Positions 3,409 through 25,213 of a DNA stretch of 30,357 bases are shown here, piece by piece. Numbering within the stretch: the first letter of the stretch is position 1; every line of letters begins with the position of its first letter. The stretch is taken from positions 1 to 30,357 of the forward strand of contig JAHFHC010000011.1 of the NCBI GenBank assembly GCA_023247085.1, given 5' to 3'. The DNA is from Microcaldota archaeon. GTDB taxonomy: Archaea > Micrarchaeota > Micrarchaeia > Norongarragalinales > UBA8480. Made by a program: the position numbers and the translations under genes. The notes below the pieces were generated by a model. It made no database searches. It was not told where the DNA came from and worked only from the letters and a program-made list of their open reading frames with translations.

Positions 3409-5628
3409 TCATTTGAACAATTTGTCAAGCACTGTTCTTTTCGGATACCATTTCATAGTCAATGCATTGGACACAACTGAAACTGAAGATAATGCCATTG
3501 CTGCACCAGCAAATAAGGGATTTAACAAAACGCCGTAAAATGGGTAAGCTACTCCAACTGCAACTGGAATAAGTATAACATTATAGCCAAATGCCCAGAA
3601 TAAATTTTGTTTAATTTTTGCAACTGTATATTTGCTTAAGTCAATTGCAGTTGCAACATCTCTCACGTCGCTTTTTACAAGCACGATTTGCCCGCTTTCC
3701 ATTGCCACGTCAGTACCTGAACCCATAGCTATTCCGAGGTCAGATTGTGCCAATGCCGGTGAATCATTTATCCCATCTCCAACCATTGCAACTACTTTGC
3801 CATTCGCTTGCAATTCTTTTACTTTATCGGCTTTGTTTTGCGGTAACACGTGCGCCAATACATTTGATGGTGAAATTCCCACTTGTCCGGCAATTGCTTT
3901 TGCAGTGCGTTCATTGTCGCCTGTAATCATGTAAACTTCGATTCCACTGCCTTTCAACTTTTCAACTGCTTCTTTTGAAGTCTCTTTTACTGCATCGGCA
4001 ATTGAGATTAAACCAATTGCTTTTTTGTTCACCACTATGAAAACTCCGGTTCGGCCATTTTCTTCAGTTTCGTCAAGCGCTTCTTCAAAGCCATCAGTTG
4101 AAATTTTTAATTCTTTCATGAGTGAAGGTGACCCGACAGTTACTTTTTTGCCCTTTACAGTTGCGGTTATTCCTTTGCCGCTAATTGCTTTGAATTGTTT
4201 TGGCTCGGTTATTGCGAGTTTCTCTTCTTTAGCTTTATTGACAATTGACTCAGCAAGTGGATGTTCTGACCTGCTTTCTGCACTTGCGGCAAGCGCTAAA
4301 ACGACTTGGCGTTTTTCGCCCAACGTGTAAACGTCAATCACTTCTGGCTCTCCTTTTGTTAAAGTTCCCGTTTTGTCAAATATAACTGCGTTCACCTTTT
4401 TTGCCACTTCAAGTGCAGCCGCACTTTTAATCAATATACCTTTTTCAGCTCCTTTTCCAGTGCCCATTATAATTGCAGTTGGTGTAGCGAGGCCAAGCGC
4501 ACATGGACACGCAACTATCAAGATTGAAATGAAAATTGTTAAGGCAAAGAGAAAAGTTTGACCTGCGATGAAATACCAGTATACAAACGCAACAACTGCG
4601 ATAACTGCAACAACTGGGACAAACACGGCAGATATCTGGTCAACTAGTTTTTGAATTGGTGGCTTGCTATTCTGTGCTTGTTCAACGAGTTTGATTATCT
4701 GCGCAAGGAGAGTGTCTTTGCCCACCTTTCTTGCTTTGAATGTAATTGAACCGTGTTCGTTAACTGTTCCTGCCACTACTGCGTCGCCTTTGCGTTTTGT
4801 CACAGGCATACTTTCTCCAGTAACCATGCTCTCGTCAACCGTACTCTCTCCGCTTATGACAACTCCGTCAACTGGCATTTTTTCTCCGGGCTTTACAATC
4901 ACCAAATCGCCGACAACCACTTGCTCAATTGGAATTTCAATTTCTTTTTTGTTTCGTATCACAAGCGCGGTTTTCGGCGCGAGACCCATGAGTTTCTTAA
5001 TCGCTTCACTTGCACTGCCACGAGCGCGTGCTTCCAAAAAACGGCCAAGGAGAATAAACGTTGCAACAACCGCTGCGATTTCATAATACGCTTCTCCACC
5101 TATTCCAGCAAACGTAACTGCTGTACTGTACAGAAAAGCTGCACCCACCCCGATTCCAACTAATGTGTCCATTGTCGGCATTTTGTTAATTATCCCGCGT
5201 GCGCCGCGAGTGAAAAATTCTCTTCCAGCGTACATGACTGGAAATGACAGTAGGAATTCAATGTAAAACAAGTTACTTGCAATAATATCGGGAAAAATAA
5301 TGCCAACGAAGCCGCCCATTGCTAGAACAAGGAGTGGAATGGAAAAAATAGCTGCGAGAATCACTTTCAGTTTATACTCTTGAATTTCTTTTTCCTCTGC
5401 ATTTGCACTTTGCTTTACACTTTCCGCAGTTTTTTCAACCAAAGTGTAGCCCGCGGACGTAACGGCTTCTTTTATCTTTTCAATTGGCGCTGTGCCTTCA
5501 ATAACTGCATTACGCGTGGCAAAGTTAACATTCGCGCTATTTACTCCGTCGAGTTTTTTCAATTTTTTCTCTATATTGGCTGCACAAGATGCGCAGTGCA
5601 TTCCTATTACTTCAAATTCACTGATCAT
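3409..5628 (-). CDS. copA: Copper-exporting P-type ATPase (P1B-1)
   Basis: ATP-driven pump that exports Cu(I) across the cytoplasmic membrane. It has one N-terminal heavy-metal-associated domain with [12 protein letters not shown] (Cys 12 and 15), then membrane helices. The actuator TGES is at about 270-273, the transmembrane CPC metal site at 374-376, the phosphorylation site DKTGT at 418-422, the HP motif at 456-457, TGDN at 569-572 and the hinge GDGIND at 617-622. The last membrane segments contain the M-x-x-SS pattern seen in P1B-1 Cu+ pumps. The length of 739 aa is normal for a single-HMA CopA. It begins 11 bp after the Met-rich membrane protein gene, so the two are probably one operon, and it lies opposite a TRASH-domain regulator. 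Silver could also be a substrate. Confidence 0.96.
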
Positions 5629-13527: not shown

Positions 13528-16500
13528 TCACCAGTCTGTTTTCTTTCTTGCTGTTTTAACTTGTCCTGGTCGTGGTTCGTATAAGTCGCCTTGTCGTTTT
13601 AAGTCGTCTATCATTTTTCGGCAAGATGGTTCGTCTATGTTAACTGCTGCGCATTCTTTTACTACGTCGTCAACTTCCACTACGTCGAATTGTTTTTCGA
13701 GGCTGTTGATGACGTTGATTAGTGTACGTAGCTTGTCGACTTTGCTCTTGGGCTGGCCGATGTTTACTATGTCTGAGTCAATTACGCCTGTTTCTTTGTC
13801 CATGAAAATGTCATGTAGGACAAACGAGACAAGTCCAATTGCGCGTTCAGCGTCTTGTAGTTCAACTTTTTGTGATAGGCGGACTTTTGCGCTTGCTTCT
13901 GCTAGTCGGATGACTCCTTCAACTTGGCGGGCGGTTATTGGAAATGTGTTGCTTTTTTTGCCAAGTTGGCGTAAGTCAATGTAAAATTCTTTGATTTTGT
14001 CAATTGCTTCTGGGGTTAATTGTGGAAACACGGTTCGTCGAGCGTATGCGACGTATTTGCGGAGGAATTCAGGTTCAAGTGGGGCAAGTATTTCGCTGTC
14101 AACTGGCACTTTTTCTTTTGATGCGCCAAGCGTGTGTCCAAGTACAATGTGTTCAACTAACTTGCGGTCATGTGCTTCGTCTAAAATATCTCTAATAGCG
14201 AATATCAAGTCAAACCTGCTGATGAGGGTAGCTGGGATGTCGAATTGCGTTGCTGGTGGAGTGTTTGGGTCAAATCTGCCAAATTTAGGGTTTGCAGCTG
14301 CAAGTATAGCTGCCTTGGTTTGAAAAGTTGTTACCATTCCCGCTTTTGCGATGCTGATTTTTTGCTGTTCCATTGCTTCGTGAAGTGCACTGCGGTCGTC
14401 GTCGGACATTTTGTCAAACTCGTCCATTAGCACCATTCCGCCTGAAGCAAGTACCATTGCACCTGCCTTGAGAATCCACCCGCCAGTTAACTCGTCTTTT
14501 TCAGCTGAGGCTGTGTTATGAACCAGTAATCCATTTGCCAGGAATGCGTGTTGTCCTGGAATTGTGAAGTCATATACCCATTCGCTTTTCGGTGGCCGAC
14601 GTTCTAGATTAGCTACGTGTTCCCATTGCACATCTGTTTCTGAGAGTACTTTGAGTATATTTGCTTCTGGCGCGTCGCATTGCTGTTCTAAAAATTCGGC
14701 TATTTTAGACAAATATCGCCGTGATGGAAGGCAAGGGCTTGTGTTTCGTATATGCGTCCATGAAATTATTGACTGTGGAATGTGATAACGCTGCCTTAGA
14801 ACTTGTAGCCACGTTGTTATAGGTAGCACATCTACATTTGTGTTGGACTTGGTCTGAACTGATAGTAAGTTTTCGAGTTTTGCTTGTTTTTCTTTTCTCC
14901 AGAAGCCAATGTTCTTTGCATATGCTTCGAAGTTTTCTTTGCCGCGTATCTCTAGTTGGTATTGTAATTGCTTTGTTTCTACTTTTTTGCTTTGAATTAC
15001 GCTTATTTTGCCACGTTTGTCCCTTATTCGCAGTTTTGCAGTTACCCCGAACCATTCAAACAAGATTAGTAATTTCCTAGCGGCTTTTTTGCTTGCTGTT
15101 GTTAAGCCAATTGACGCTGACCCGTGTTTTGGCAGTGCAACATAGCCATCAGTGTCCATCCAGCCGCGTATAAACGCCGCTACGTTTTCTACCCCGCTTT
15201 GGGTTATTGACGGCGGTAAGTCAATTAAGTGTGATTTTTCTCCAGCTGGTGCGCCTAGCTTTGTAAAGATGTCTCGAATCACAGTTGAAGCGACTCGGAG
15301 TTGTGGCGTCTTATTTTCGTAGGAAAATACGTTTGGAGTTACTGTAAATTCTTCTTTGAATAATTTGCATAAGTATTTCAAATAAGGCACTGAACTTGAA
15401 GTTATTCTGATGCCGCCGTGTTTTCCAACGGCTAAATCGCCGTCTCCGGCAACTACTCCTGCTAAGTAAGCTATTTTTGGTGTTAGGGTCAACGGGATTG
15501 AAACGTAGCTTCCTGCGCCGGTTTCAAGTTTTGTCACTTGTTCGAGTAATTTGTTTTCCGTTATTTCGGCTTCTTTACACATTGAACGTAGTAAATCAAG
15601 TGGGATTCTATGATTTGTCAAGCGGTATGCGTAGAGCAAGTCTCGAGTTATACCATAAGTTGAAGCTACGTTTTGCAGCGAGCCTTTTTTCTTTGCTATT
15701 TTATCCGTTACATTTGTAAAGAACGGCGTAATCGAGTTAGCTATATATATATTTGGAGAATAAACAAGTGGAAGCAAGTGCGTTGGTTTGCCTTTTAGGG
15801 CTGGGTGTGCGCGTGAAGATGCTATCCATTCACTTCCAGTTAATTCGCCTGATTTTTTCCATTTTATCTCGCTGTTTTCAAACACTAATATTGGCGTGGC
15901 AGTTGTTAGCGCGAGGTGTTTTCCGCGGCTAGTTGTTAAGCCAATCATTTCTTGCGGCGCCTTAATTTTCCAAATCTTCGTGGCAGGTGCAAAACCAGTT
16001 TTAAGTTGGTCAAGATCAAGTGTAGCCACTTTGAGATTTGCTTCGTTTGAAAACGCTCCTGGTTCTTCTTCTGTGCTGTCTTCATTTTTAAATTTAGCTT
16101 CAATCAATTGTCCAATTTCATGTAACCCCGCATCGTTTAACTCAACTAGCGAATCGCCTTCTACACAAAGACCAACGCCCGAGGTTCCTTTTCCACTTGT
16201 GAAAACTGCTTTAGGCGCCAAGCGTACAATATATTGTAAAATCGCGCTTTTTCCGATTCCGGGGTCTCCTATAAGCAAAATGTGCGTGTCGTTTCGAATA
16301 GTATGGCCATCTGGAAGTCTTTTGTTGGGTGTACCGCCAAATAGTTGAAGGGCAACTGCTTGTTTTAATTCATTATAACCATAAATGCTCGGAGCAATGC
16401 TCTTGTTGATTTTTTCAAACACATCTGCTTTGCTTGCAAGTTCCTTTATACGTTGTTCTTCTTCTTTTGAAATTTCAATTTCTTCAAACTCCTGTTGCAT

Positions 16501-17262
16501 TTTATGCAAGTGAATTACGTCCATGTACTTGCTGTACACGCTGCTCTTGCCTTTACCTTCTTTATTTGGCTTCAAACGCAAAACGCCAGTTAAAACTAGT
16601 TTTTCGCCAGGTGATATTTTGTTTACCAAGTCAGTCTCTAGCCACAAGTCAACGTGTGAAGTTGGCGAGTTACCGCGTAGTTTTTCAACTAATTCTTGTA
16701 TGCGCGCACGTTGCAAGTTAACGAATTCACTTTTTTCTTCAAGTAAATTAAAATGATTGCGGCCACACTTACACTGCGTTGGCGGCTTAATTGGCTCAGT
16801 TTTATCTGGAGTAGTTGTAGTAATTTGCCAACAATGCACGCATTCCCATAATGCGGTTTGCATCCTCGGATAAATATCAGTAATCCAACTTACGGTTCCC
16901 TCGACCCTAATAATTTTATCAAGTTGACTTGCACCTAGGTTTTGCACTGAAGCACTGTAAACATCTGGCAAATTGAAAAGCCGCAATTTTGGCAAATAAA
17001 GTTCCTTTGCAATAATCAACGCGTGAGTATTAAGAGAACGCATTGCATCCTCTGCAATTGGAATATACTTATCAGGAAAAGCAACTAAATTATCAGCTAA
17101 TTCAGGGTTAAACCGCTGTAATTCGGAATAGTCAAGCTCTAAACAAGGCTGTTGTGGAAATAACGTTGCTAGTGTTGTCAGCTCTTCATTTTTTCTAGTT
17201 GAGAAAAATTCTTCGAATTGAGCGTAAATTTCTTCGCGTTTAATTGTAACTGCCTCTTCCAC
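13528..17262 (-). CDS. mcm: Replicative helicase MCM with an in-frame intein
   Basis: The 1244-aa precursor consists of a 693-aa MCM helicase split by a 551-aa intein after residue 365. MCM unwinds DNA ahead of the replication fork. The N-terminal part has a zinc-binding region (C141-x2-C144, C164-x-C166) and an OB fold. The AAA+ core has Walker A GDPGIGKS at 332-339. After the intein come Walker B MVLMDEFDKM, the sensor 1 AAANP and the arginine finger SRFD. The C-terminus ends in a winged-helix-like region. The start is GTG at 17262, with GAGGT about eight bases upstream. Without splicing the ATPase site would be disrupted, so splicing must work if this is the only MCM. It begins a minus-strand run of information genes. 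Confidence 0.96.
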   Translation of the reverse strand: MEEAVTIKREEIYAQFEEFFSTRKNEELTTLATLFPQQPCLELDYSELQRFNPELADNLVAFPDKYIPIAEDAMRSLNTHALIIAKELYLPKLRLFNLPDVYSASVQNLGASQLDKIIRVEGTVSWITDIYPRMQTALWECVHCWQITTTTPDKTEPIKPPTQCKCGRNHFNLLEEKSEFVNLQRARIQELVEKLRGNSPTSHVDLWLETDLVNKISPGEKLVLTGVLRLKPNKEGKGKSSVYSKYMDVIHLHKMQQEFEEIEISKEEEQRIKELASKADVFEKINKSIAPSIYGYNELKQAVALQLFGGTPNKRLPDGHTIRNDTHILLIGDPGIGKSAILQYIVRLAPKAVFTSGKGTSGVGLCVEGDSLVELNDAGLHEIGQLIEAKFKNEDSTEEEPGAFSNEANLKVATLDLDQLKTGFAPATKIWKIKAPQEMIGLTTSRGKHLALTTATPILVFENSEIKWKKSGELTGSEWIASSRAHPALKGKPTHLLPLVYSPNIYIANSITPFFTNVTDKIAKKKGSLQNVASTYGITRDLLYAYRLTNHRIPLDLLRSMCKEAEITENKLLEQVTKLETGAGSYVSIPLTLTPKIAYLAGVVAGDGDLAVGKHGGIRITSSSVPYLKYLCKLFKEEFTVTPNVFSYENKTPQLRVASTVIRDIFTKLGAPAGEKSHLIDLPPSITQSGVENVAAFIRGWMDTDGYVALPKHGSASIGLTTASKKAARKLLILFEWFGVTAKLRIRDKRGKISVIQSKKVETKQLQYQLEIRGKENFEAYAKNIGFWRKEKQAKLENLLSVQTKSNTNVDVLPITTWLQVLRQRYHIPQSIISWTHIRNTSPCLPSRRYLSKIAEFLEQQCDAPEANILKVLSETDVQWEHVANLERRPPKSEWVYDFTIPGQHAFLANGLLVHNTASAEKDELTGGWILKAGAMVLASGGMVLMDEFDKMSDDDRSALHEAMEQQKISIAKAGMVTTFQTKAAILAAANPKFGRFDPNTPPATQFDIPATLISRFDLIFAIRDILDEAHDRKLVEHIVLGHTLGASKEKVPVDSEILAPLEPEFLRKYVAYARRTVFPQLTPEAIDKIKEFYIDLRQLGKKSNTFPITARQVEGVIRLAEASAKVRLSQKVELQDAERAIGLVSFVLHDIFMDKETGVIDSDIVNIGQPKSKVDKLRTLINVINSLEKQFDVVEVDDVVKECAAVNIDEPSCRKMIDDLKRQGDLYEPRPGQVKTARKKTDW
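14515..16167 (-). mobile_element. Intein with LAGLIDADG homing endonuclease inside mcm
   Basis: The insertion lies between ...SGVGL and TASAEKDE of MCM, in the conserved loop after Walker A. It starts with Cys and ends with His-Asn; the +1 extein residue is Thr. Block A is CVEGDSLVELND. Block F is VYDFTIPGQHAF, and block G is NGLLVHN. Between them is a two-motif LAGLIDADG endonuclease: LAGVVAGDG at intein 235-243 and FIRGWMDTDG at 332-341, both with their acidic residues, so the endonuclease could still cut. Block B reads LTTATP at 87-92, with Thr at position 91 where most inteins have His. Extra segments at about 164-200 and 454-496 look like helix-turn-helix modules. At 551 aa it is a large, full-length intein. 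Confidence 0.95.
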
Positions 17263-24970: not shown

Positions 24971-25213
24971 TAAATAGCCCCGAGCGGATTTTCGATTCTC
25001 TCGGGTTTTCTTTTCCGTGAGGCTTTTCTTTTATCAAAAGAAAAGGTTCTTCGAACCGCTGTCGCAGGCTTCCCTTAAAAGGCCGCTCAATCGCCGCAGG
25101 CCTTTTAGACCTCTGGCTTTTTGCGGCCTTTTTCCAAAGGCCCGTATCCTTGACCATAGTCCTAAAACTATTTTCAAATAGAAATTAGTTTTTCTAGACG
25201 ACGGGGCTATTTA
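24971..25213. other. Hairpin-dense element with perfect 12-bp terminal inverted repeats
   Basis: The ends are exact inverted copies: TAAATAGCCCCG at 24971-24982 and CGGGGCTATTTA at 25202-25213. Inside is GC-richer DNA folded into a row of hairpins. The arms are 25023-25032 with 25036-25045 (10 bp), 25045-25049 with 25053-25057 (5 bp), 25077-25084 with 25099-25106 (8 bp), and 25125-25131 with 25136-25142 (7 bp, with loop GGAA when read on the minus strand, a GNRA tetraloop). CCCGAG at 24979-24984 can pair either with CTCGGG at 25000-25005 or with the far terminal arm. No credible protein is encoded. It could be a structured RNA or a MITE-like mobile element. SRP RNA and RNase P RNA core motifs were sought and not seen. 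Confidence 0.6.

Follow-up and report, generated by a model that had tools for sequence, protein, structure and literature searches.

A tRNA-Gln(UUG) gene with three introns and a dispersed intron family with a mirror-type core in a micrarchaeal lineage

Identity of a structured 243-bp element

What is the strongly folded, apparently non-coding segment at positions 24971-25213 of the window (the whole 30,357-nucleotide stretch of DNA that was analysed)? The initial annotation described it as a GC-richer island without coding capacity, bounded by perfect 12-bp inverted repeats, and suggested an undescribed non-coding RNA, possibly a switch, or a MITE-like insertion. The repeats (24971-24982 and 25202-25213) and further hairpins are present, and the element has no real coding capacity. 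Its GC content does exceed that of the window (0.444 vs. 0.401), but the distinction is weak, as 14% of 243-base windows reach 0.444. Inverted repeats of 12 bp are not in themselves rare at this window size (2 found, against a shuffle mean of 1.2), so the unusual feature is the fold: relative to dinucleotide shuffles, z scores were -6.25 and -6.06 on the two strands, and 0 of 200 shuffles folded as well. Elsewhere in the window, at 13528-17262, lies an MCM helicase-like gene, a 1244-aa frame with an apparent intein.

The element is almost certainly a minus-strand tRNA-Gln(UUG) gene with three introns, encoding a multi-intron archaeal pre-tRNA that would be spliced by an epsilon-2 endonuclease. 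The gene spans 24975-25208 and comprises 73 exon nt and 161 intron nt. Excision of the introns yields AGCCCCGTCGTCTAGTGGTCAAGGATACGGGCCTTTGGAGCCTGCGACAGCGGTTCGAATCCGCTCGGGGCTA, a 73-nt sequence identified by ARAGORN as tRNA-Gln(ttg); ARAGORN finds no tRNA in the unspliced gene, which was missed by gene finders because the three introns interrupt it. On the minus strand, exon 1 (AGCCCCGTCGTCTAG, 25194-25208) provides the 5′ strand of the acceptor stem and the start of the D arm, and is identical in a paralogue (C35) and in relatives. Exon 2 (TGGTCAAGGATACGGGCCTTTGG, 25134-25156) carries the D arm and the UUG anticodon, exon 3 (AGCCTGCGACAGCGGTTCGAA, 25050-25070) the 3′ side of the anticodon stem, the 5′ side of the T stem and the T loop to A59, and exon 4 (TCCGCTCGGGGCTA, 24975-24988) T60, the 3′ strands of the T and acceptor stems, and A73. 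The tRNA hallmarks A1-U72, U8, A14 and TTCGAAT are present, and the apparent 12-bp inverted repeat combines the acceptor stem of 7 bp with an extension not conserved in orthologues.

Exon identity and exon boundaries are supported by computation. The ends of the element (AGCCCCGAGCGG...CTAGACGACGGGGCTA) are kept in relatives, with very different lengths between them. The L038 locus carries a plain, intronless 73-nt tRNA-Gln whose 5′ and 3′ parts are the reverse complement of these ends; this tRNA-Gln(ctg) has an identical acceptor and closely similar D and T arms. tRNA-Gln genes contain no intron at L038, one at L049, and two both at L025, which adjoins the same HIT gene, and in the C35 paralogue, and the orthologues, whether they carry no intron, one or two, have the exons in common. 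In genome G001, introns interrupt both the anticodon loop and the T loop of tRNA-Gln, and there is another gap near the anticodon stem. As only two tRNA-Gln starts were found in the genome, a MAG of 36 contigs in which a further gene could be missing, the gene at 24975-25208 is probably its sole UUG decoder.

The proposal of a structured non-coding RNA was thus correct as to class, although the identity is a known one. Inverted termini and a strong fold on both strands would suit a MITE or a riboswitch-like RNA spanning all 243 bp, but this idea is refuted by the tRNA reading, and we consider it extremely improbable. The termini form a tRNA acceptor stem and not a transposon end, and within the genome both ends recur only once more, in the C35 gene, so that the full-length second copy is simply the other tRNA-Gln gene; it is the middle that exists in many copies. 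At best, MITE-like would describe the T-loop intron, which is a member of a dispersed family. A minority of family copies have duplicated flanks, but the flanking repeats measure 12-52 nt, occur at only 8 of 74 cores and show no fixed-size target duplication, and no partner transposase was found among the two enzyme families tested (Y1 transposase and reverse transcriptase). The alternative pairing of the terminal arm with a local CTCGGG does exist here; it is lost in the paralogue (CACAGG) and in a congeneric orthologue (CACGGG), which removes the basis for a two-state switch. No Rfam family reached its gathering score, the matches at the level of E-values all being sub-threshold (e.g. STAXI, E 0.001, under its cut-off).

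Three introns and the splicing endonuclease

The D-loop intron (37 nt, 25157-25193, minus strand) has a central helix GUCU/GGAC, a 5′ bulge AGA and an inner helix AAAACUA/UAGUUUU; there is no clear outer helix, hence its assignment as a relaxed motif. The central helix reads GUCU:GGAC here and GUCU:AGAC in the C35 paralogue, and the intron is missing from the syntenic G002 orthologue. A canonical bulge-helix-bulge (BHB) characterizes the anticodon-loop intron (position 37/38, 63 nt, 25071-25133, minus strand). Read by hand, it consists of an outer helix CGGGC:GCCUG, a bulge GAA, a central helix CUUU:AAGG, a bulge GGA and a 10-bp inner helix; RNAfold agrees on the outer and inner helices, but its MFE structure pairs UUU with GGA. 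The G002 orthologue, which lies beside the same HIT gene, has CUUU:AAAG as its central helix. The interior of the present anticodon-loop intron is inverted relative to the same-site intron of the G001 tRNA-Gln, suggesting an event at the DNA level, for example recombination between its arms. Without the T-loop intron (position 59/60, 61 nt, 24989-25049, minus strand), the T loop has 7 nt (TTCGAA|T); folds of three homologues show a central UUCG:CGAA helix and, on the 3′ side, a bulge of 3 nt. Where exactly splicing would occur within the bulges was set by hand, using the canonical rule and the orthologues.

The family of the endonuclease is likewise supported by computation. The G002 enzyme (387 aa) matches the ARMAN-2 epsilon-2 EndA (PDB 4fz2) over its full length (E 6e-128) and keeps the catalytic Y, H and K and the loop Y-K, the catalytic and loop residues named in PMC6379350 and PMC12397907. 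It is slightly shorter than the ARMAN-2 protein (~387 vs. 395 aa), and its activity is predicted. Genome G000 encodes the same epsilon-2 endonuclease, with an N gap. From these sequences, the genus is predicted to have a broad-specificity epsilon-2 splicing endonuclease of the ARMAN-2 type. An intron within the endonuclease gene was considered and rejected, the short frame in G000 being due to the N gap and the core copy lying past the stop codon. That copy (L021:1440-1530; G000:C26 ~3840-3930) is an antisense intron core between endA and the next gene, with a duplicated flank of ~29 bp; a congeneric genome has no core copy behind endA.

By analogy with established archaeal tRNA splicing, the gene would be transcribed into a pre-tRNA of ~234 nt whose three introns would fold into BHB or relaxed motifs. 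The epsilon-2 type endonuclease would cut both bulges of each intron, and ligation, presumably by RtcB, would unite the four exons as a regular tRNA of 73 nt. Multi-intron archaeal tRNAs are already known, and this gene adds one more such case. As in the tRNAs of Thermoproteales and ARMAN-1/2 (reviewed in PMC4033280 and PMC6379350), up to three BHB or relaxed introns occupy the D, anticodon and T arms, together with a broad-specificity endonuclease, and as in the intron transposition of Thermoproteales, similar introns are found in different tRNAs. Unlike in these groups, the core of the shared introns is conserved and includes a mirror third strand, and one such intron lies in 16S rRNA.

A dispersed intron family and its mirror core

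The T-loop intron is a member of a repeat family dispersed among the tRNA and rRNA genes of the lineage. With a covariance model of its core we found 39 copies in the genome, almost all of them within tRNA genes, and 23 per congener; 63 of 147 relatives have at least one core, in a patchy distribution. Sense location within a tRNA-like frame was judged by requiring an acceptor stem, U8, A14, a T stem and TTCRA; this fixed rule replaced an earlier screen by excision and ARAGORN that was useful for single-intron genes only. Among the best 30 of the 39 copies, 21 lie in the sense orientation within such a frame, and most others are in tRNA or 16S genes by eye. Overall, 38 of 68 cores are in sense within a tRNA frame, whereas the rule placed only 1 of 226 random positions and none of 200 shuffles in this way; 3 cores are antisense. 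One copy interrupts 16S rRNA (L013:1564-1616), after GGTAAAA and, by eye, near E. coli position 781, a known site of archaeal rRNA introns.

In a set of 40 genomes, core number shows a strong anticorrelation with the number of visible tRNAs (Spearman -0.71), and per complete genome a median of 12 tRNAs is visible to the Rfam model in core-rich genomes, vs. 38. In G009, G027 and G039, 2, 5 and 7 tRNAs are visible to RF00005, and these genomes have 36, 26 and 35 cores, respectively. The family is probably tolerated because splicing would remove its members.

The core consists of a pyrimidine strand Y (a U-run, C and a second U-run), a loop, R1, which is the complement of Y, a linker and a purine run, R2. 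In the T-loop intron, on the minus strand, these are Y (UUUUCUUUU, 25036-25044), its Watson-Crick partner R1 (AAAAGAAAA, 25024-25032) and the third strand R2 (AAAAGAAAA, 25006-25014). In asymmetric copies R2 keeps the order of Y and hence mirrors R1: an exact mirror was found in 24 of 41 and an exact Watson-Crick relation in 0 of 41, which rules out an alternative hairpin between R2 and Y. The total mirror distance was 31, whereas 10,000 permutations never gave less than 89. In a replication with 40 further regions, about half from genomes new to the analysis, the exact mirror relation held in 19 of 29 and the Watson-Crick relation in 1 of 29 (distance 31 vs. a minimum of 57); these regions were found with the core model, which in part guarantees an R2 but does not impose its asymmetry. 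Related genomes and overlapping families supply several of the copies, which are not all independent, so the permutation figures overstate the count of independent events; the mirror relation nonetheless recurs in different copies with different run lengths. A relaxed search gave a preselected set of 136 near-perfect cores, with all three strands agreeing in 127, one deviation in 9, and no wobble (T-G-G) triplet in any.

Mirror-type cores also occur outside tRNA genes in 7 virus contigs (L204-L210, IMG/VR), at least two of which carry RNA Flavo-1, suggesting Bacteroidetes hosts. A BLAST search of a phage collection with a viral core copy gave no match. In the literature searched, from which subscription papers were mostly absent, we found no description of a mirror core in tRNA introns.

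DNA-level and RNA-level readings of the core

As a sequence arrangement, Y-R1-R2 is the signature of a putative class II purine-motif intrastrand triplex, and the level at which the core acts, as well as its mode of spread, is inferred. One reading is that the T-loop introns represent a mobile DNA repeat with a core that forms such a triplex in DNA, and that splicing by the broad-specificity endonuclease lets its insertions in tRNA genes survive. We give this slightly less than an even chance; it would add a mechanism to the tRNA-Gln explanation without replacing it. The mirroring of R1 by R2 is the class II purine-motif arrangement (PMC4666352), the strands agree throughout most of the preselected near-perfect cores (127 of 136, no T-G-G triplet), and the cores in the 7 virus contigs lie apart from tRNA genes. 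The bacterial class II triplex repeats PIT, BoxC and TMECO (PMC4666352) share the order 5′-Y-R-R(mirror)-3′, are repeated within genomes and are patchy between close relatives; they differ in being G/C-rich rather than A/T-rich, whereas the present cores lie inside archaeal tRNA introns and have longer linkers (6-18 nt, vs. 3 nt in the E. coli motif), which counts against the triplex. Mobility would explain the direct repeats of 12-52 nt, which flank 8 of 74 copies but 1 of 336 controls, and the antisense copy with a duplicated flank past the endA stop codon. Several flanking direct repeats or tRNA fragments begin exactly at tRNA nucleotide 1, and partial tRNA fragments lie beside a core and a full tRNA gene at L050:1587, L069:1399, L026:1290, L038:1578 and L008:1768. 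A 5′ tRNA fragment also accompanies intron gain in the tRNA-Thr of Caldiarchaeum (PMC3293823), although there the element is 1.8 kb long and has a recombinase, while the cores here are ~50 nt with no evident enzyme. Indeed, no transposase tracks the copies: Y1 transposase and reverse transcriptase are absent or unrelated, and neither is associated with cores as a mobiliser.

A role confined to DNA also does not predict the bias of cores in tRNA genes, 38 sense vs. 3 antisense. This bias favors a role in RNA, in which the Y-R1 hairpin of the pre-tRNA would receive R2 in its groove, through a pseudoknot-like minor-groove interaction or a novel purine triple, and the docked strand would present the intron for splicing. 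The 5′ Y-R1-R2 order is that of RNA pseudoknot minor-groove triplexes. The three tRNA-Gln T-loop introns also contain another hairpin, CUCACGG/CCCGUGAG, which covaries and has R2 as its loop. We nevertheless regard an RNA role as unlikely: the strict matching of G to C-G is atypical for A-minor triples, other introns of the same genes have no core, and RNA is reported not to form purine-motif triplexes (PMC4666352).

We put forward only tentatively, and with considerable doubt, that a mobile DNA repeat needing a purine-motif triple strand for its function was the ancestor of such archaeal tRNA introns, and that tolerance through splicing let such repeats colonise most tRNA genes, leaving one relative with 2 model-recognisable tRNAs. 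For the origin and spread of archaeal tRNA introns, the mirror-core family, with ~40 copies in one genome and absence from some near relatives, offers a handle on whether spread occurs at the DNA or the RNA level. Standard tRNA finders overlook most tRNA genes of core-rich genomes, and tRNAs overlooked in this way can distort both estimates of genome completeness and inferences about codon decoding.
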